A DNA stretch of 64,000 nt from Thermoanaerobaculum sp. (GTDB lineage: Bacteria > Acidobacteriota > Thermoanaerobaculia > Multivoradales > UBA5704), in NCBI GenBank assembly GCA_021154885.1, contig JAJKHS010000025.1, positions 20,001 through 84,000 of the forward strand. The letters run 5' to 3'. The notes under the pieces are model-generated. The model ran no database searches and had not been told where the DNA came from. It worked only from the letters and a program-made list of their open reading frames with translations. The translations under genes were made by a program, and so were the position numbers. Positions 3,001 through 36,485 of the stretch are shown one piece after another (positions within the stretch are counted from its first letter, which is position 1; each line of letters opens with the position of its first letter).

Positions 3001-6000
3001 CGAAGGCGGGATCGCCCCCCAGGCCGGTGCGGAAGGGCACCGGATTGGCGAAGTAGCCGATCACCTGCAAGAGGTCGGGATCGCTCCTGCCCGCCTCGGC
3101 CGAGGCGACGAGCAGGTCCTCCTGCCCGCTGTAGCGGTGGAGCAGGGCCTGGAATGCCGCGAGCAGGACCATGAAGAGGGTCGCGCCCTGCTCCCGTGCC
3201 AGGCGCCGCAGCCCTTCCGCGGTCGCGGCGTCCAGGGCCAGGGGGGCGGCCGTGCCGCGGAAGCTCTGCACCCGCGGGCGGGGACGGTCGAGGGGAAGCT
3301 CGATTGTCCCGGACATCTCTGGAACGCCGGCCAGCCGCTCTCGCCAGTAGCGCTCCAGCCGCTCCCCTTCGGGGCCCTCCAGCCGCCTCCGCTCCCACGC
3401 CACGTAGTCGCCGTAGCGCAGGGCCAGGGGCGCCAGGGCCGCCGGCGGTCCCTCCGACTCCGCCCGGTAGAGGGCCGCGAGCTCCCGCGCCAGGACGCCC
3501 AGCGACGCGAAGTCGGCCACCAGATGGTGCACCACCACCACGAGCCAGGCGCCCGCCTCCTCCGTCCGCCGCAGGAGCGTGACCCGCCAGAGGGGCTCCG
3601 CCACGATGTCGAAGGGGCGGCAGGCCTCCCGTTCGAGGGCCGCGGCGACCTCCGCCGCGCTCCACCCCGAGGCGTCGACCACCGCGGGACGCGGCGCCCT
3701 GGCCTCGCCCTCCACCCGCTGGAACGGCTCGTCCGCTCCCTCGTGGCCCTCATGGAACGTCGTCGACAGGGCGGGGTGGCGGGCGGCGAGAGCGCGACAG
3801 GTGCGCTCCAGGGCCGCGGCGTCCAGCCCCGCTGCGACGCGGGCCGCCGCCACCAGGTGATACGCCGCGCTCGCGGGAGCCAGTTGGTGGAGGAACCAGA
3901 GGGCGCGTTGCCCGTGGGAGAGGGGGAATTCGGCCTGCGCCGCGGCAACGGGCCGCGGCCTGTCCGCCGCCGCTGCACTCCCGTTCTGGAGCTGATCCAG
4001 GACCTCGCCGGCGAGGGCCTCGAAGCTGGGCCGCTCCAGGATGCGGGCCAGCGACACCTCCACCCCGAGCGTCCGCTCCAGGCGCTGCGCGAGCTCGGCC
4101 GCGGCCAGCGAATCGAGGTCCGCGAGCCCGGCGCTCTCGGCGCGCACCACCGCCGCCGCCTGGTCGCGCAGGAAGGCGGCGAGCTGCGTCAGCGCTTCAT
4201 CTGAGGCCAGCGGAGCCAGCCGGGCCAGGGACTCCGGCCCCGCAGGCGCTTCTTCTTCCCGGGCTCCCCGGGCGAGGACCGGCAGCTCGTCCCGGAGGTA
4301 GAGCTCGCGACAGAGCTGGCGCTGCACCTTGCCGCTGGAGGTCTTGGGCAGCCCCCCGGGGCGGAGCAGGAGCAGAGCGTGGAGGGCGACCTCGTGCTCC
4401 GCCGCCAGAGCCCGGCGGACCTGGCGGGCGATCTCCTCGACCTGCTCGCCGGCGGGGTCCGCCGCGATCGCCAGGGCCGAGCGGCGGTCGACCTCCTGCG
4501 CCAGCACCAGGCGCTCCTCGTCCGCCACCTCGACCGAGAACGCCGCGCCGCCGTCCGGCACCAGGGCCGGGTGGGCCGCCTGCGCCGTCGCCTCCAGGTC
4601 CTGGGGGTAGCAGTTGCGGCCCCGCAGGATGATCAGCTCCTTGCGCCGCCCGGTCACGAAGAGGACGCCGCCCTGCAGGAATCCGAGGTCCCCCGTGCGC
4701 AGGAACGGGCCGGCCCCCGGTTCGTCCGCCAGGCGGGCGGCGAAGGTCCGCGCCGACTCCTCGGGCTGGTGCCAGTAACCCTGCGCCACGCTCGGACCCG
4801 CCACCCAGACCTCCCCCACGCGGCCGGGCGGCAGTCGCCGGCGCTCCTCGGGCTCGGCGATCACCACCTCGAGGTCCATGCCCGCCGCGCCGCAGCCGGC
4901 GAGCGCCAGCCGCGCGCCCGCGGCCCGCGGCTCCTCCGCCCAACCCCGGCCCAGGGCCGCCGCGTCGACCGTGGCGACCACGGGCTCGTCCTCGACGCGG
5001 GCGCCGGCCACGAACAGGGTGGACTCCGCCAGGCCGTAGCAGGGGAGGAACGACCGGCGCTCGAAGCCGCAGCCGGCGAACGCCGCGGCGAACCGCGCCA
5101 GGGTCGTCGGCCGCACCGTTTCCGAGCCGGTGAAGGCCACCCGCCAGCTCGACAGGTCCAGCCCGGAGCGCTCCGCCTCCCCCACCCGGCGCGCGCACAG
5201 CTCATACGCGAAGTTCGGCCCGCCGCTGGTCGTCGCCCGGTAGCGGCTGATCGCCTCCAGCCAGCGGCGCGGCCGCTGGAGGAAGCTCAAGGGGGAGAGG
5301 AGGACGCAGACCGCGCCGGTGTAGAGCGGCTGGAGGACGCCGCCGATCAGCCCCATGTCGTGGTAGAGAGGGAGCCAACTGACGATGACCGAGCTCTCGC
5401 TCTGGGCGAAGGCCCGGCGGATGACCTCCTCGTTGTGCAGCAGGTTGCCGTGGGTCACCACCACCCCCTTGGGCAGGGAGGTCGAGCCGGAGGTGTACTG
5501 GAGGAAGGCAGGGGTCTGCGCACCGGCGCCGGGGTCCCGCCAGTCGCCTTCGCCGGACTCCGCCGCATCCGTGGCGAGGACCGGCACCCCGGCGAGGCAG
5601 GGGACCGCCGCCGCCCAGGCCCGCACCTGGCCGGCGAGCGCCGCGCTGGTGAGGACGACCTCGGGCCGCGCGTCCGCGGCGATGGCCAGTAGCCGCGGCG
5701 AGCTCCGTCCCCGCGCCGGCGGGAACGCCGGCACCGCGATCCAGCCGCCGTAAAGGCAGCCGAAAAAGGCGGCGATGAATTCGACGCCCGCCGGGTAGAG
5801 CAGCAGGGCCCGCCCCCCTGGCCCGCCGCGGGCCTGGAGCCTCGCGCCCAGCCGGCGCGCACCTTCGTCCAGCTCTCCCGCCGTCAGGCTCTCCGCTTCC
5901 TCGCCCGTCGCGGCCAGGAAGCGATAGACCTTCCAGTCCGGGTTCTGCGTACCGTGCGAACGGAGCAACTCGACAAGAGTAGAGAACTGCCGTGGCAGTT

Positions 6001-6019
6001 GCAGACGAAAGCGGTCCAA
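1..6019 (-). CDS. Lipopeptide NRPS, N-terminal part: FAAL - ACP - C - A (serine-like code) - PCP - C (truncated at window edge)
   Basis: Own minus-strand translation (not in the ORF track, probably because it has no stop inside the window). FAAL motifs YTSGSTSLPKGVVVTHGNLLHNEE, WLPLYHDMGLIGGVLQPLYTG, SGGPNFAYELC, YGLAESTLFV, KTSSGKVQRQLCREL (about 4250-6019). Carrier domain GLADLDSLAAAELAQRLE (about 4030-4190). C domain VVHHLVADFASLG (about 3540). A domain YMIYTSGSTGRPKGAMVHHRA, NLYGPTEAAVDVTSW, LYRTGDLAR, PNGKVDRRAL (about 1000-2560). PCP FFAHGGHSLLATRLL (about 800-860). Second C domain VVHTPHILADGWSLG (about 240). Start is ambiguous: TTG at 6019, or in-frame ATG at 6187. Confidence 0.93.
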   Translation of the reverse strand, partial: MDRFRLQLPRQFSTLVELLRSHGTQNPDWKVYRFLAATGEEAESLTAGELDEGARRLGARLQARGGPGGRALLLYPAGVEFIAAFFGCLYGGWIAVPAFPPARGRSSPRLLAIAADARPEVVLTSAALAGQVRAWAAAVPCLAGVPVLATDAAESGEGDWRDPGAGAQTPAFLQYTSGSTSLPKGVVVTHGNLLHNEEVIRRAFAQSESSVIVSWLPLYHDMGLIGGVLQPLYTGAVCVLLSPLSFLQRPRRWLEAISRYRATTSGGPNFAYELCARRVGEAERSGLDLSSWRVAFTGSETVRPTTLARFAAAFAGCGFERRSFLPCYGLAESTLFVAGARVEDEPVVATVDAAALGRGWAEEPRAAGARLALAGCGAAGMDLEVVIAEPEERRRLPPGRVGEVWVAGPSVAQGYWHQPEESARTFAARLADEPGAGPFLRTGDLGFLQGGVLFVTGRRKELIILRGRNCYPQDLEATAQAAHPALVPDGGAAFSVEVADEERLVLAQEVDRRSALAIAADPAGEQVEEIARQVRRALAAEHEVALHALLLLRPGGLPKTSSGKVQRQLCRELYLRDELPVLARGAREEEAPAGPESLARLAPLASDEALTQLAAFLRDQAAAVVRAESAGLADLDSLAAAELAQRLERTLGVEVSLARILERPSFEALAGEVLDQLQNGSAAAADRPRPVAAAQAEFPLSHGQRALWFLHQLAPASAAYHLVAAARVAAGLDAAALERTCRALAARHPALSTTFHEGHEGADEPFQRVEGEARAPRPAVVDASGWSAAEVAAALEREACRPFDIVAEPLWRVTLLRRTEEAGAWLVVVVHHLVADFASLGVLARELAALYRAESEGPPAALAPLALRYGDYVAWERRRLEGPEGERLERYWRERLAGVPEMSGTIELPLDRPRPRVQSFRGTAAPLALDAATAEGLRRLAREQGATLFMVLLAAFQALLHRYSGQEDLLVASAEAGRSDPDLLQVIGYFANPVPFRTGLGGDPAFAELVGRVRGTALGAFAHLGFPFLLLAERLRVEREPGRLPLAQVLFALHRARSPEEEAVAAFALRQAGPPLDLGGLCLEPVAIPERSAAFDLALTLAEVGGRLAGALQVASDLFDPATAARLAGHLERLLAAAAAGPGRRLSDLPLLSAAETAQAGGEWNDTAVADTAPGAGLHHLFRRQARRSPHAVAVADGARTLTYAGLDRWTDGLAARLRALGCGPDTLVGVALERSVELVVALLATLKAGAAYVPLDLEYPLERLAFMLEDSRPALVLSESRLLARCPAALPRVLCLDLEPGCKEEGGEGGAGEAEVFDDSQLAYMIYTSGSTGRPKGAMVHHRAIRNRLLWMQAAYRLTSADTVVQKTPFSFDVSVWEFFWPLLTGARLVLARPGGHRDSRYLLELLARERVSVAHFVPAMLQAFLEEPGVERLGGALRLIVASGEALPERLARLCRERLPAALENLYGPTEAAVDVTSWSCGPSVTVAPGVPEVVAIGRPIANTQIRLLDRRLRPVAIGAPGELFIGGVNVGRGYFARPDLTAEKFLPDAEGEGEPGARLYRTGDLARHRPDGAVEYLGRIDHQVKVRGVRIELGEIEAALASHPRVREAVALVLTAEGAEGEPRLVAFLVAAAGAAPLGDGELRELLERRLPPAMVPSALVAVEELPLSPNGKVDRRALARLAPRRGDPATAASAAGSPAAEVLAALMAELLGIPALDPGESFFAHGGHSLLATRLLARVRGIWQVDLPLAALFAAPSPAALAREVERAARGGSGPALPPLAPVPRQGPLPLSLAQQRLWMIHQMEPESRLYDEQIGLVLSGPLSPAALARSLGAVVERHEGLRTTFGLEAGEPVQRIAPPAPAVPLPVVDLDGLAAGVRWETVTELAHEGARRLFDLERGPLLRATLLRLAADEHLLVVHTPHILADGWSLGVFLRDLLALYQELAGGPAAALRPLPVQYADYAVWQRRCLGPAVLEPQLAYWREQLAAAPAAVTLPIDCER

Positions 6020-6265
6020 AGTCAATCCAGTTTCAGAGCTTCCAACCAATGTGTTGGATTCAAATTCTAGCAGGGCCTGGTGGAAAGAACAATCCTCAGC
6101 AGGAGCTCTCAAGCCGGCGCCAGAAAGTCTGCAATTAAAGATTTTCAAATTCGTACCGCGCACGCTGACGCTGCTGATTCTCCGCATTGACAGACCTCAT
6201 TGGGAACGTTACCGTTGCTTCAGGTCCAGACTTCAGGTTCTGTCGGCAGGCTCAGGGTCGCTCAC

Positions 6266-6290
6266 CCAGGGTCCCCCCGTCAGACCCTGG
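6266..6290. promoter_or_regulatory. Perfect 8-bp inverted repeat CCAGGGTC-N9-GACCCTGG just upstream of sbnA
   Basis: Read directly; lies in the divergent NRPS/sbnA intergenic region about 21 nt before the TTG start. Confidence 0.4.
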
Positions 6291-6311
6291 AACGAACTGA
6301 GGGGGTGGAAT

Positions 6312-7334
6312 TTGCAATCTCAGCAAGTCCGAGAGAGCGTGCTCTCGGCGATTGGAAATACGCCTTTGGTGCGGCTCTCCCACTTCCTTGCGGACTCGAG
6401 CCTCCAGGTTTTTGCGAAGCTCGAGCTGCTCAATCCCGGCGGGAGCATCAAGGACCGGACCGCGGTGGCGATCCTCGAGGAGGCTTTTCGCAGCGGGGCG
6501 ATCGATTCGCGCTCGGTGATCGTCGAGTCGAGCTCCGGGAACATGGGGATCGGCCTGGCCCAGGCATGCCGGTATCACGGTCTGCGGTTCATCTGCGTCG
6601 TCGATCCCAAGACCGCCGCCCAGAACATCCAGATCCTGAGGACCTACGACGCCGAGATCGTGCAGGTGACCGAGCCCGACCCGGAGACGGGAGAGTTCCT
6701 GCAGGCGCGGATCGATCGCGTCAAAACGCTCCTCGGCCAGATCGAGAGCTCCTTCTGGCCCAATCAGTATGAGAACCTGAGCAACCCCGGCGCCCACTTC
6801 GAGACGACGATGCGCGAGATCGCCTCGGCCCTCGACGGGAAGATCGACTACCTCTTCGTGGCGACCAGCACCTGCGGCACCATCCGGGGCTGCGCGGAGC
6901 ATGTCCGGCACTACGGTCTGCGGACGAAGATCGTGGCGGTCGACGCCGTGGGCAGCCAGATCTTCAGCAACGTGCGGGCGAAGCGGATGATCCCGGGACT
7001 GGGAGCGGGCATCAAGCCCCCTCTCTGCCGGCCGTCGCTGATCGACGAGTGCGTCCACGTCGACGACGTCGACTGCGTCGCCGGTTGCCGCCGCCTCGTG
7101 CTGCGGGAGGCCATCCTGGCCGGCGGCTCGTCAGGAGGCGTCGTCGCCGCGCTGGAGAAGATGCAATCCCGCATTCCCCCCGGATCGGTCTGCGTGGTCG
7201 TCCTGCCCGACCGGGGAGAGCGTTATCTGGACACCGTCTACTCCGACGAGTGGGTGCACCGCCACTTCGGCAACGTCGAATACCGCTGGCACGCTGCCGG
7301 GGCCGACCTACCCGTCGAGGCGGCGGCATTGTAG
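6312..7334 (+). CDS. sbnA: SbnA-like N-(2-amino-2-carboxyethyl)-L-glutamate synthase (2,3-diaminopropionate biosynthesis), PLP fold type II
   Basis: SAIGNTPLVRL, LELLNPGGSIKDRTA, ESSSGNMGIGLA, CVVDPK, GGSSGGVVAAL, and the C-terminal LPDRGERYLDTVYSDEW typical of SbnA rather than CysK. Likely TTG start after a GAGGGGG ribosome-binding-like sequence. Confidence 0.85.
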   Translation: MQSQQVRESVLSAIGNTPLVRLSHFLADSSLQVFAKLELLNPGGSIKDRTAVAILEEAFRSGAIDSRSVIVESSSGNMGIGLAQACRYHGLRFICVVDPKTAAQNIQILRTYDAEIVQVTEPDPETGEFLQARIDRVKTLLGQIESSFWPNQYENLSNPGAHFETTMREIASALDGKIDYLFVATSTCGTIRGCAEHVRHYGLRTKIVAVDAVGSQIFSNVRAKRMIPGLGAGIKPPLCRPSLIDECVHVDDVDCVAGCRRLVLREAILAGGSSGGVVAALEKMQSRIPPGSVCVVVLPDRGERYLDTVYSDEWVHRHFGNVEYRWHAAGADLPVEAAAL

Positions 7335-7410
7335 CCAACAAATGCGCGACGGCTTGGGAAATCTCAATTTTGTCGAGAATGACCGGCAGAACCCGTCTGC
7401 AGCTACCAGC

Positions 7411-7610
7411 AGGACAAACGACGGACTTTCAGGACCGAGCTCCGAGTTTTCGGACCCAAGCTGGCGCCTAAGGACGAAAGACCAACTTTCAGGCCGTTCA
7501 ACGGCTTTTTCGGCTGTTCGGCGGCGCTTCAGGACACGGGTTGGCGTTTTAGGACCGAAGGCGGAGTTTCAGGACGGAAAATGGTGTTTCGGACTGAATC
7601 AGCATCCGGA
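7411..7610. repeat. Degenerate tandem array, about 10 units with an exact 20-nt period, core TTTYMGGAC followed by about 11 variable nt
   Basis: GGAC/GGCC/GGCT cores begin at 7412, 7432, 7452, 7472, 7492, 7512, 7532, 7552, 7572 (all +20), then 7591. T-rich tract precedes most cores. Confidence 0.85.
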
Positions 7611-7890
7611 TTCAGCTTTCCGGGTTTTCCCGTCTGTCAGGGCCCCGGCGAGCCCTTTGCCAGCTCTTCCCGGATGATACATCAGATCCTTCGCTCGCTG
7701 GCGCGAAAATGTCCTCGGAAATGTCCTCGGCAAAGTTCATAAGAGTCCACGCTCAAGGACACCGTTGCGATCCGGTGGGGCTCCCGACGGGTGAGCCGCC
7801 TCTGTGGCGACTTGCTGGCACGGGCTCTGCACAAGGTGGGCATGACTCGTTCCCGCGCAATGACGCCGGGGGCTTGGAGGTATATCTCTT

Positions 7891-8061
7891 ATGAATACGA
7901 AACGAACTGTCCCCGCGTTGCTGGTCCTCACCAGCCTATTGGGTCTTTGCATCACAGGTTGTTGCTGGGAACCTCACCGTCGCCACGGCCGTCGCCTTGA
8001 CAGCCTTGATCTGAAGGCCGGCGTTCCATCGGCGGCCCAGACGGAGGTGGCCGCCCCCTAG
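7891..8061 (+). CDS. Small lipoprotein (56 aa), MNTKRTVPALLVLTSLLGLCITGCCWEPHRRHGRRLDSLDLKAGVPSAAQTEVAAP
   Basis: Ribosome-binding sequence GGAGG about 15 nt upstream; hydrophobic signal peptide with LCITGC lipobox; terminator immediately downstream. Below the ORF-track length cutoff. Confidence 0.65.
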   Translation: MNTKRTVPALLVLTSLLGLCITGCCWEPHRRHGRRLDSLDLKAGVPSAAQTEVAAP

Positions 8062-8075
8062 ATGTCGCGTGCACC

Positions 8076-8103
8076 GCGGCCCGCTCCGGCGGGCCGCTGT
8101 TTT
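8076..8103 (+). terminator. Rho-independent terminator GCGGCCCGC-TCCG-GCGGGCCGC-TGTTTT
   Basis: Perfect 9-bp stem, 4-nt loop, T-rich tail, 14 nt after the lipoprotein stop. Confidence 0.75.
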
Positions 8104-8125
8104 CCGCGTGGTGAGAAAGGCCCTT

Positions 8126-9343
8126 TCAGGTGCGCGTTTCGTTCTGAGACGGCTCGAGCTCGAAGGACGTCCAGAGCAGCCATACGGATTGGCTCCAGAG
8201 ACTCGTCGCGATGAGGGCGGCGAGCGAGCCCGGCGGAATCCTGACCCGTTCGCGCATCCAGGGGTCTTCGAGCAAACGCCAACTGGCGGCGAGCATGGGC
8301 GGATAGATCAGATCGATGGCGGGGTGAGGATCGTTTTTCTTTTGCAGTTTGTCGGACCACAGGCTGAGGATTCGCACGTCGAGATGGCCGGGAGCGAGTC
8401 TCTGGAGGTTCGCCGTCACAATGGAGAAGAGATTCACGTCCACGGGATTTTCGAGCAGAAGAAGATGGGCGCCAAGAACGCCCTGCATGGGATCTTCCCA
8501 CTTGGCCATCAGCAGGCGTTCGGTCTGGTCATGCGGGAGAGCGGCCCGGCCTACACTCAAGTTGGCGCGCGCCTGTTCGGTGATGCGCGCGACTTTCCAA
8601 TCGGGCTTGTCAGCGCCGAGCCTGCACATGGTAACGCCGGCGTTGGCGAGATCAGGACGGACTTTGCGGGTGTGGACGCCGAATTCGCGGAGCGGGAGGA
8701 AGACGCAGGTCTCAAATCCCTTCTCGGTCCAGATGGGCATTTCGATGGCGCCGAGGTCGGCGAGTTGGACCCGCAGTCGATAAAAGCCGGGCGCGCAGGT
8801 AATGATGGCGGTGAGCGACTGGAGGTTGACGTCGGCGAAGCCTTTGATGTCCTCTCCAGCTTCGTTGATCAAGCTCATGGCGTCGACGAGATCCGCGGGA
8901 ACCTCGCTTCCCTGGATGCCGACGTAGAAAAACAGCTCGCTGCCGGTGCCGCTCCATTTTCTCTTGCGCGGCGTGGGACCGCGGCTCGCGCTCGCCTCAG
9001 GTGCCTTCTCTGCGGCGCCGCGCGTAATTCGGCGGCCCCTGCCGGTGGGGGTGCGAGCGGGCGTTGGGGATGGCGCGAGATCCTCGGGCGGCAGCGGCGA
9101 GGCGAGCTCGATCGGCGGACCCTCCACTTTGACGAGCTCCTGATTGAATACCTTGGACATCTCGACGACGTTGTTGCCAGCCTTGAACTTCAACTTGTAC
9201 AGGCCCGGCTCCAGGTCATCGGCGACCAGACCGCCGACCCCTTTCGCGACGCGGTTGTAGCCGCCATCAATGAGGAAGACTTCGTCGAAGGGGCTCGCGG
9301 CCTTCACTTCCAGACGTACCTTGCCGTCGAACAACTTAAACAT
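8126..9343 (-). CDS. Conserved-looking protein of unknown function, third gene of the hydrolase/caspase operon; predicted beta-rich N-terminal region
   Basis: MFKLFDGKVRLEVKAASPFDEVFLIDGGYNRVAKGVGG...; start ATG overlaps the caspase stop (ATGTTTAA). Confidence 0.75.
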   Translation of the reverse strand: MFKLFDGKVRLEVKAASPFDEVFLIDGGYNRVAKGVGGLVADDLEPGLYKLKFKAGNNVVEMSKVFNQELVKVEGPPIELASPLPPEDLAPSPTPARTPTGRGRRITRGAAEKAPEASASRGPTPRKRKWSGTGSELFFYVGIQGSEVPADLVDAMSLINEAGEDIKGFADVNLQSLTAIITCAPGFYRLRVQLADLGAIEMPIWTEKGFETCVFLPLREFGVHTRKVRPDLANAGVTMCRLGADKPDWKVARITEQARANLSVGRAALPHDQTERLLMAKWEDPMQGVLGAHLLLLENPVDVNLFSIVTANLQRLAPGHLDVRILSLWSDKLQKKNDPHPAIDLIYPPMLAASWRLLEDPWMRERVRIPPGSLAALIATSLWSQSVWLLWTSFELEPSQNETRT

Positions 9344-10364
9344 GGAGGTCCACCGCCTCTCCAAAAGCATCGAACTCGCTGGCGGATTGGCCGTCTGGAT
9401 TCATCAGGGCATAGTGACCCATGGGGAGCTCCAGCCGCCACGGGTTGGCACCGCCGGTGTTGGGTCTGAGCAGGTTCGGACTGCCGCCGAATATGCTGTA
9501 GCCGTTGCTGGCGGCCGCCGCAGGGGCTTGAAACTGCACGGTCACCGCGGTCAACTTCGTGGCGAGCCCTTCCGCCATGGCGAACTCATCTTTGGGAAGG
9601 AATTGCGGCTCGTCGAAGCCGGCGCCGATGGCATCGAGCTTCGGCTTGACGCGCTGGGTGAAGTAGTTGAGGACGTAGCGCGTGACGTCCGCCGTGTTCA
9701 GCCTGCCATCTGCGGTCACGGCGCCGCCGTCAAGGGCGCCCATCAGCGCCTGGGTGAAGTAGCCATGGACATCGCCGTTGGCCGCTTCGGCCTCGCGCGC
9801 CTTCTTTGCCCAGCGGGTGGCAAGACCGTAGAAACGCTTCACCTGGCCGCCGCGCACGTTGTGAACGGATTGCCAGGGCGCCTGACCCAGGGGGGCCCGG
9901 GGCATGTCGTCGCGGCAGCAATCCATGAAGAGCACGATCTCGTCGAAGTAGGCGGCGGCGGCAAACCAGTCAGCGTACTCGACAGCGTTGAGGTGGTGGC
10001 CGGTGGTGCCGAGGAGGAGGTCGGCGTTTGAGGCCAGCAGCGCGGAGGTGTTGAGATCCGGGCCGAAGCCGTGGCCGGCGAAGAAAAGGTAAAGGCGTTT
10101 GCCAATCCGGCTTTTCGAGCGGCCGATTCTGAGCAGGCGCTCGAAGGCGCGGTTGATGACCATGATGTCGGGTTGAGAATCGATGCTCTCGGCAGTGCCG
10201 GTAAATTGGGAGCCGAGAATGAGCGACGCGTTTTTGTCGGGGTTGACCAACTTGTTGGAGACGAGCCACTCATGGAACCAGGTGGCGTCGTTCTCCGGGC
10301 CCCGAAGGCTGGAGATTCCCGGATAGTTGTTGATACCGGCCGTAATGGCGTAGTTTTCGTCCAT
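9336..10364 (-). CDS. Caspase-like (peptidase C14/metacaspase-type) protease
   Basis: MDENYAITAGINNYPGISSLRGPENDATWF; catalytic His motif LYLFFAGHGF; catalytic Cys motif IVLFMDCCRDD. Confidence 0.85.
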   Translation of the reverse strand: MDENYAITAGINNYPGISSLRGPENDATWFHEWLVSNKLVNPDKNASLILGSQFTGTAESIDSQPDIMVINRAFERLLRIGRSKSRIGKRLYLFFAGHGFGPDLNTSALLASNADLLLGTTGHHLNAVEYADWFAAAAYFDEIVLFMDCCRDDMPRAPLGQAPWQSVHNVRGGQVKRFYGLATRWAKKAREAEAANGDVHGYFTQALMGALDGGAVTADGRLNTADVTRYVLNYFTQRVKPKLDAIGAGFDEPQFLPKDEFAMAEGLATKLTAVTVQFQAPAAAASNGYSIFGGSPNLLRPNTGGANPWRLELPMGHYALMNPDGQSASEFDAFGEAVDLHV

Positions 10365-36112: not shown

Positions 36113-36322
36113 GGCTTCGCGAGGCGCCACACAAAAACGGCGGAGCGCATCATGGGCCTCGCCGATTGCGTCACAGGCTTCGCGAGGCGCATCATTCGCC
36201 CCGCGAAGCCCATCATTGGCTCGGCGAGCCCCGTGTCGCAATCCGCGAGGCCTGTGATGCGCCCGGCAAAACCCATGATGCGCCTCGCCAGGCGCGTGTC
36301 GCGCCTCGCGAGGCCTGTGAGA
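36113..36322. repeat. Degenerate tandem array, 10 units with an exact 21-nt period, palindromic core CCTCGCGAGG plus variable RTGAT/GTGTC-type segment
   Basis: Core positions 36119, 36140, 36161, 36182, 36203, 36224, 36245, 36266, 36287, 36308 (all +21). Confidence 0.9.
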
Positions 36323-36485
36323 GGGTGTTTGGAAAGTTCGCCTCCCAGGCGCAGGCGCTGCGCCGCCGGCCCGTTCGGCCCAACGGGCCGGGAGAGCTGA
36401 GCCCAGGGCTGAGGCCGCAGGCCGATGCCCTGGGTGGAGGCATGACAACGCGGTGCGGACTGAAAGCCGGGGACGCGGCGTCGCC

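Follow-up and report, generated by a model that had tools for sequence, protein, structure and literature searches.

A 20-nt direct-repeat array from Thermoanaerobaculum sp. as a candidate set of iteron-like sites for an XRE-type HTH protein, within a wider class of intergenic arrays sharing a 20–21-nt period

Intergenic regions of bacteria commonly contain short tandem and palindromic repeats. In iteron systems, direct repeats lie adjacent to a gene for a DNA-binding protein, and the protein binds the repeats and serves in replication or partition. The 64,000-nt stretch of Thermoanaerobaculum sp. DNA analysed here (hereafter the window) contains an array of nine direct repeats whose family resembles the iteron arrays and the HTH-bound centromere arrays of the tubC and parC type: the spacing of the repeats is one or two helical turns, a gene for a DNA-binding protein is close by, and the units are degenerate with a conserved core. 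The focal array and its sister arrays in the same genome consist, as iterons do, of tandem repeats of about 17–22 bp in one orientation, and the array of one relative (G003) adds a preceding inverted block. A gene for a DNA-binding protein, putatively the cognate one, adjoins the arrays at the loci C133, C31, C405, C886 and G003 described below, and a remnant of such a gene is present in the window. Unlike the iteron and centromere arrays, the present arrays are chromosomal, occur in several copies per genome and lie 3' of a small XRE HTH gene, and binding is here a prediction. Inspection of the array neighbours that were read revealed metabolic, transport, GNAT and HTH genes and no Rep, ParA, ParM or TubZ gene. 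A literature search of incomplete coverage found no description of such arrays, and viral contigs gave no match to the array pattern. The reading preferred here, with a probability of about 0.42, is that the focal array is an HTH-linked direct-repeat array of iteron-like, helically phased candidate binding sites for an XRE HTH protein.

The nine units, with the consensus AGGACnnnnGACGGCGTTTC and a second unit type AGGCTGTTCGACGGCGTTTT, occupy positions 7411–7590 on the plus strand and start at 7411, 7431, 7451, 7471, 7491, 7511, 7531, 7551 and 7571, a step of exactly 20 nt. The original prediction had described about ten units with GGAC-type cores at this period. Nine of them are in register. 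The GGAC at 7591 follows the last core by 19 nt, and its unit scores −6.8 on the unit profile compared with 12 to 21 for the nine units, and therefore the array ends at 7590. The listed cores are literally GGAC in seven of the nine units, and those at 7491 and 7511 are GGCC and GGCT, belonging to the second unit type (AGGCTGTTCGACGGCGTTT). The identity at lag 20 is 0.517 over 7411–7610 compared with 0.256 ± 0.034 in 5000 Markov shuffles, none of which attains this value at a lag between 10 and 59 (maximum, 0.421), and the array is confirmed as real. Further identity peaks are found at lag 40 (0.45) and lag 60 (0.46). Profile hits cover 7411–7469, 7471–7529 and 7531–7590 with E values of 2e-12 to 4e-10. 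Over 35 units from four arrays, column information is highest at G2 and G3 (1.66 bits), followed by C/T5 (0.99 bits), G13–G14 (0.9–1.2 bits) and T17 (0.92 bits), and it is near zero to 0.4 bits in columns 6–12.

Three more arrays of the focal family are present in the 8.2-Mb assembly, at 12.65 kb of contig C82, 86.27 kb of C133 and 62.68 kb of C144. They were found over the whole assembly by a pattern of two cores and then by a sequence profile: 14 of the 15 two-core matches fall inside the four arrays, the mirrored control gives none, and three-unit profile hits have E values of 1.5e-7 to 1.4e-10. Like the nine units of the window, the sister arrays are tandem direct repeats on one strand; they align lengthwise with the window array and differ by gain or loss of whole units. 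The C133 array starts directly after the stop codon of a gene for an XRE-type HTH protein of 137–150 aa, which matches Pfam HTH_3 and HTH_26 above cut-off, and no intact HTH gene adjoins the C82, C144 and window arrays.

The focal array sits between convergent genes. On its left, an ORF at 6051–7334 on the plus strand encodes a pyridoxal-phosphate-dependent enzyme of the PALP family (Pfam PF00291, E 7e-63) and stops 76 nt before the array; on its right, an ORF at 8126–9370 on the minus strand, ending at 8126, has no Pfam family. Beyond 7590 the array runs into a hairpin at 7594–7615, CTGAATC(AGCATCCG)GATTCAG, recognised by direct reading and by alignment with the C133 module, in which the equivalent hairpin includes the stop codon of the HTH gene. 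The segment 7562–7676 (minus strand), which combines the array end with the degraded 3' part of a gene for an XRE-type HTH protein, was identified by blastn and tblastn and matches the junction between the C133 array and the 3' end of its HTH gene with 79% DNA identity over 116 columns (E 3e-23). Fifteen terminal codons are readable at 7615–7659 on the minus strand (QRARRGPDRRENPES compared with ERARRGPNGPENPES, 73% identical), and the frame is broken upstream. In view of this match and these readable codons, the window array would most simply be a solo, or stranded, copy that arose by duplication of an HTH-array module and no longer has the gene.

The HTH protein was searched in nine genomes including the source genome of the window (G000), and loci with E < 1e-14 were taken as closest. 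Five such loci were found in three species: C133 and C31 in G000, C405 and C886 in G002, and C49 in G003, with two HTH genes each at G000 C31 and G002 C886. At all five loci, no more than about 60 nt separate an HTH stop codon from an array of 20–21-nt period. The loci stem from one homology search seeded with the array-adjoining gene; more distant HTH paralogues in these genomes, for example C133:63675, often have no adjoining array. The gene order HTHa–array–HTHb is common to G000 C31 and G002 C886, whose proteins are clear counterparts by alignment and whose profiles for the 20-nt unit correspond when read on the same strand (permutation P 0.002). The C133 profile matches that of G003 C49 in register (P 0.014; P 0.005 for the window copy) and matches the inverted block of G003 C49 (P 0.001), and, once one column is deleted, it also matches G002 C405, whose units are 21 nt long, better than any of 300 shuffles. 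These permutation tests are column shuffles, and their P values carry no further correction. A GGAC/GTCC core is common to the arrays of all five loci; core and period are kept in the arrays of homologous modules, and the middle of the unit diverges. A search of 58 relatives with the focal-consensus pattern and a first profile (R1) run on relatives gave no arrays because the units are too diverged, and the relatives' arrays were recovered through the HTH link and a broader profile (R2). The array at G003 C49 (L099 1233–1413) consists of three inverted units and then four units and a partial fifth in the opposite orientation, arranged around CCGCTCGCCAGCGG, which would allow whole units to pair into a long hairpin.

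These observations lead to a plausible model of the module. An intact module would consist of a small XRE/Cro-type HTH gene of about 125–140 aa, with a conserved C-terminal helix region, and directly behind it an array of about 7–13 asymmetric units of 20 nt (once 21 nt) with a conserved (A/G)GGAC core. Each unit most likely provides a single site, for the cognate HTH protein or for a paralogue of it. With a step of 20–21 nt, the sites would all face about the same side of the helix. HTH molecules could then load next to one another, as happens on iterons, and once loaded they may serve the intergenic region as a local silencer, a roadblock or a tether. Binding, cooperativity and effects on genes are postulated here from the linkage to the HTH gene and from the shared core, strand and spacing, which are observed. 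Of the proposals made from the letters of the window, a multimeric protein-binding array whose sites are spaced by two helical turns is still the best reading and gains from the HTH linkage, with binding itself kept as a prediction.

The original prediction was based on one array and had named the lack of comparable arrays elsewhere in the genome or clade as a result that would speak against it. Comparable arrays are present both in the source genome and in relatives, and the focal family is one member of a wider, genome-wide class of intergenic arrays that share the 20–21-nt period and not the sequence. When the window and five contigs of the source genome (843 kb in all) were scanned for lags, 26 intergenic periodic places were detected, 22 of which have lags of 20, 21 or the doubles 40–42. 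The fundamental period is 20.0–21.0 in 20 of the 21 arrays examined, and six of these 20 arrays were already known before the contigs were picked. Twenty contig starts sampled blind (335 kb) contained six intergenic places, five of which belong to the class by lag and unit sequence; one of these five has a Fourier estimate of 15.0 despite a lag of 42 and 21-nt units. The total is 25 intergenic arrays in 1.18 Mb, or about 16 arrays per Mb when the six known beforehand are excluded, and extrapolation of this density gives slightly more than 100 per genome. Scanning of 600 kb from three other families of the order revealed no such arrays (25 compared with 0, P 5e-5; blind part alone, P 0.006); the gene caller performed poorly on one of these three genomes (G007), which inflates rather than shrinks its intergenic share. 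Coding repeats of the source genome have periods scattered over 12, 15, 21, 24, 39 and 54. Outside the arrays, lag 20 gives no residual signal, and lag 21 is confounded with the residual 3-nt coding periodicity of the masked sequence. Genes were called by a simple GC3 rule, so that single arrays may be misassigned, and C144:28305 and C144:223061 were omitted as doubtful.

The class arrays form about ten unrelated sequence families, several of which occur at two or more loci, and they are found in every type of gap next to genes of mixed, unrelated kinds. Since many arrays of the same period adjoin unrelated genes, the period alone does not require an HTH protein; it could be held by a number of different binding proteins or by a helical constraint that acts on duplicated DNA in general. 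A second class member lies in the window at 36138–36326 and consists of 21-nt palindromic units with the consensus CCGCGAGGCCCGTGATGCGCC (lag scan z 8.9; fundamental 21.0; dyad symmetry P < 0.0005), and its sequence family differs from that of the focal array. It is placed between two minus-strand genes and resembles the family of C144:306575 (GGCCTCGCGAAGCC). At about 29.1 kb of contig C190 of G003 (L218), an N run has apparent 21-nt repeats on both flanks, and so assembly gaps may conceal further arrays.

Besides the HTH-linked arrangement, satellite-like DNA without sequence-specific function has to be considered, in which tandem duplication builds and homogenises the arrays, copies scatter among intergenic sites, and the step comes from the duplication mechanism or from general DNA packing (helical phase) instead of a dedicated binding protein. 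This is possible, at appreciably less than even odds. The occurrence of about ten unrelated families with one period, the mixed kinds of adjoining genes and the higher-order repeats of four and six units at C82:55722 and C82:71011, as in eukaryotic satellites, are in agreement with it, and so is a rapid turnover of families, the 21-nt CAGC...GCTG family matching the source genome 263 times and not matching any of 12 relatives, among them two congeners. A single fixed unit length has no obvious reason under unselected duplication, however, and the adjoining array at all five closest HTH loci and the conservation of core and strand at homologous HTH loci of other species speak against it. A related view, which can be put forward only tentatively, is that the satellite DNA of this clade conserves a period of two helical turns and not sequence, with an estimated 100–150 intergenic arrays in this genome and many fast-evolving, species-specific families, some of which may have HTH proteins co-evolving with them, and with 20–21 bp perhaps imposed by a need of proteins or of chromosome packing for sites on a single helical face. 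That the focal array belongs to a coding region, with a super-repeat of 60 nt or 20 residues, is scarcely credible: a frame of 111 codons at 7342–7677 on the plus strand is open through the array, and the sister arrays also hold open frames, but conservation tracks the 20-nt unit in all three frames, and homologous arrays differ by whole 20-nt units, one of them having 21-nt units. The non-coding status originally assigned to the array is thus supported.

Arrays of RNA or DNA hairpins, serving in transcription ends, protection of mRNA 3' ends or absorption of supercoils between genes, are an unlikely alternative for the focal array on the structure tests. Most 21- and 41-nt arrays are indeed strongly palindromic, with RNA fold z scores of about −2 to −9.7 on both strands, compared with −0.4 ± 1.2 in 40 array-free gaps, and with dyad symmetry of the unit profile at P < 0.01; several arrays begin 16–31 nt from a stop codon, and 8 of 22 arrays lie in convergent gaps compared with 35 of 165 gaps, an excess that is not significant (P 0.09). 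The C82 and C144 arrays have fold z scores of only about −1.6 on one strand. The focal array, in contrast, has a fold z of about 0 on both strands, its family lacks dyad symmetry (P 0.15; P 0.58 for the C25 array alone), and the 20-nt direct arrays of the source genome have neither dyad symmetry (P 0.15–0.57) nor a fold signal. The HTH-linked 20-nt arrays, namely the focal family, C31, G002 C886 and G003, are asymmetric direct repeats. Because palindromic and asymmetric arrays belong to one class, the trait common to them is the period and not the structure. Two further suggestions of the original prediction find no backing here: a processed, structured RNA array does not agree with the absent fold signal, and the Rfam 15 covariance models gave no match in 5800–9500 at E up to 1; a curved-DNA element does not agree with an end-to-end ratio that lies within the shuffles, 14% of which are equally or more bent in a wedge model, or with the existence of GC-rich arrays of equal period without T-tracts. 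Very improbable as well is an origin from REP or REPIN-type elements that were moved by a Y1 (RAYT) transposase and expanded into tandem arrays. In its favour, 12 Y1_Tnp matches were found in the genome, the arrays lie dispersed outside genes and are palindromic in many families, and tandem clusters can form from REPINs in Pseudomonas (PMC3116915); against this, the Y1 genes are flanked by different palindromes of their own (GCCCGGGATTTCAATCCCGGGC, CCCAGGGCAACGCCCTGGG), none of five array-family motifs occurs at the six Y1 loci read, and the focal family is not palindromic.

In comparison with described repeat types, the present arrays share with REP, BIME and REPIN elements (PMC3733652, PMC3116915) short, dispersed extragenic units, many of them palindromic, species-specific families and the presence of Y1 transposases in the genome, but they are contiguous at a fixed step of 20–21 nt and fall into about ten unrelated families. 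Membership of the focal family among these elements was set aside for want of a palindromic unit, and the route through a RAYT-flanking palindrome was set aside on the palindromes and motifs of the six loci read out of 12. Y1 (RAYT-like) genes lie within inverted palindrome pairs, a typical REP layout unlike that of the arrays, at L292 1346/1961, L293 2112/2293 and L291 1093/1305, and L291 has an additional 21-nt array at about 2002. Bacterial minisatellites and VNTR loci are likewise intergenic, degenerate tandem repeats with higher-order repeats; the present arrays differ from them in being nearly all of one unit length whatever their sequence. The RNA sponges of the CsrB/RsmZ type, with repeated GGA, are alike in having a regular AGGA-type motif in a non-coding stretch, and unlike the focal array in that the latter has no fold signal and no Rfam match and lacks GGA in two of its nine units; a CsrB-type sponge was rejected since its GGA motifs belong in hairpin loops and neither strand has a fold signal. 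A CRISPR, with near-identical repeats of 23–50 nt and unique spacers, was also rejected, as the step is 20 nt, the units are degenerate and the variable part is about 7–8 nt.

That unrelated arrays nearly all have one two-turn unit length suggests a constraint on the spacing itself, and the idea that helical phasing is selected for in bacterial non-coding DNA can be tested concretely on it. An HTH-array module may represent a regulator or nucleoid protein of a new type, equipped with an array of binding sites that can expand, and the modules would provide a natural series for the co-evolution of a DNA-binding protein and a satellite.

A search for two cores 20 nt apart across 85,000 species found mostly short tandem repeats in Kribbella, Rhodopirellula, Agromyces, Acidimicrobiaceae, Novosphingobium and Streptomyces; because the search pattern itself dictates core and spacing, these matches are no evidence of relationship, and kinship with them was set aside. 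In Streptomyces aurantiacus (G061; L067, L068), the repeat GTCCGGCGTTTGAGGACGAG has 197 copies with up to 3 mismatches compared with 4 for the mirrored control, and copies are sometimes paired 23–24 nt apart; its core resembles that of the focal unit, but the search pattern contained that core. Arrays of 20-nt units are also found in unrelated phyla, in Rhodopirellula sp. JC639 (L069 675–779) with GTGGTGTTTCAGGCCTGTTC and in Kribbella jiaozuonensis (L066, L075) with CGGCTATCGCCGGGCGTTTC, where the array family occurs in about five places.
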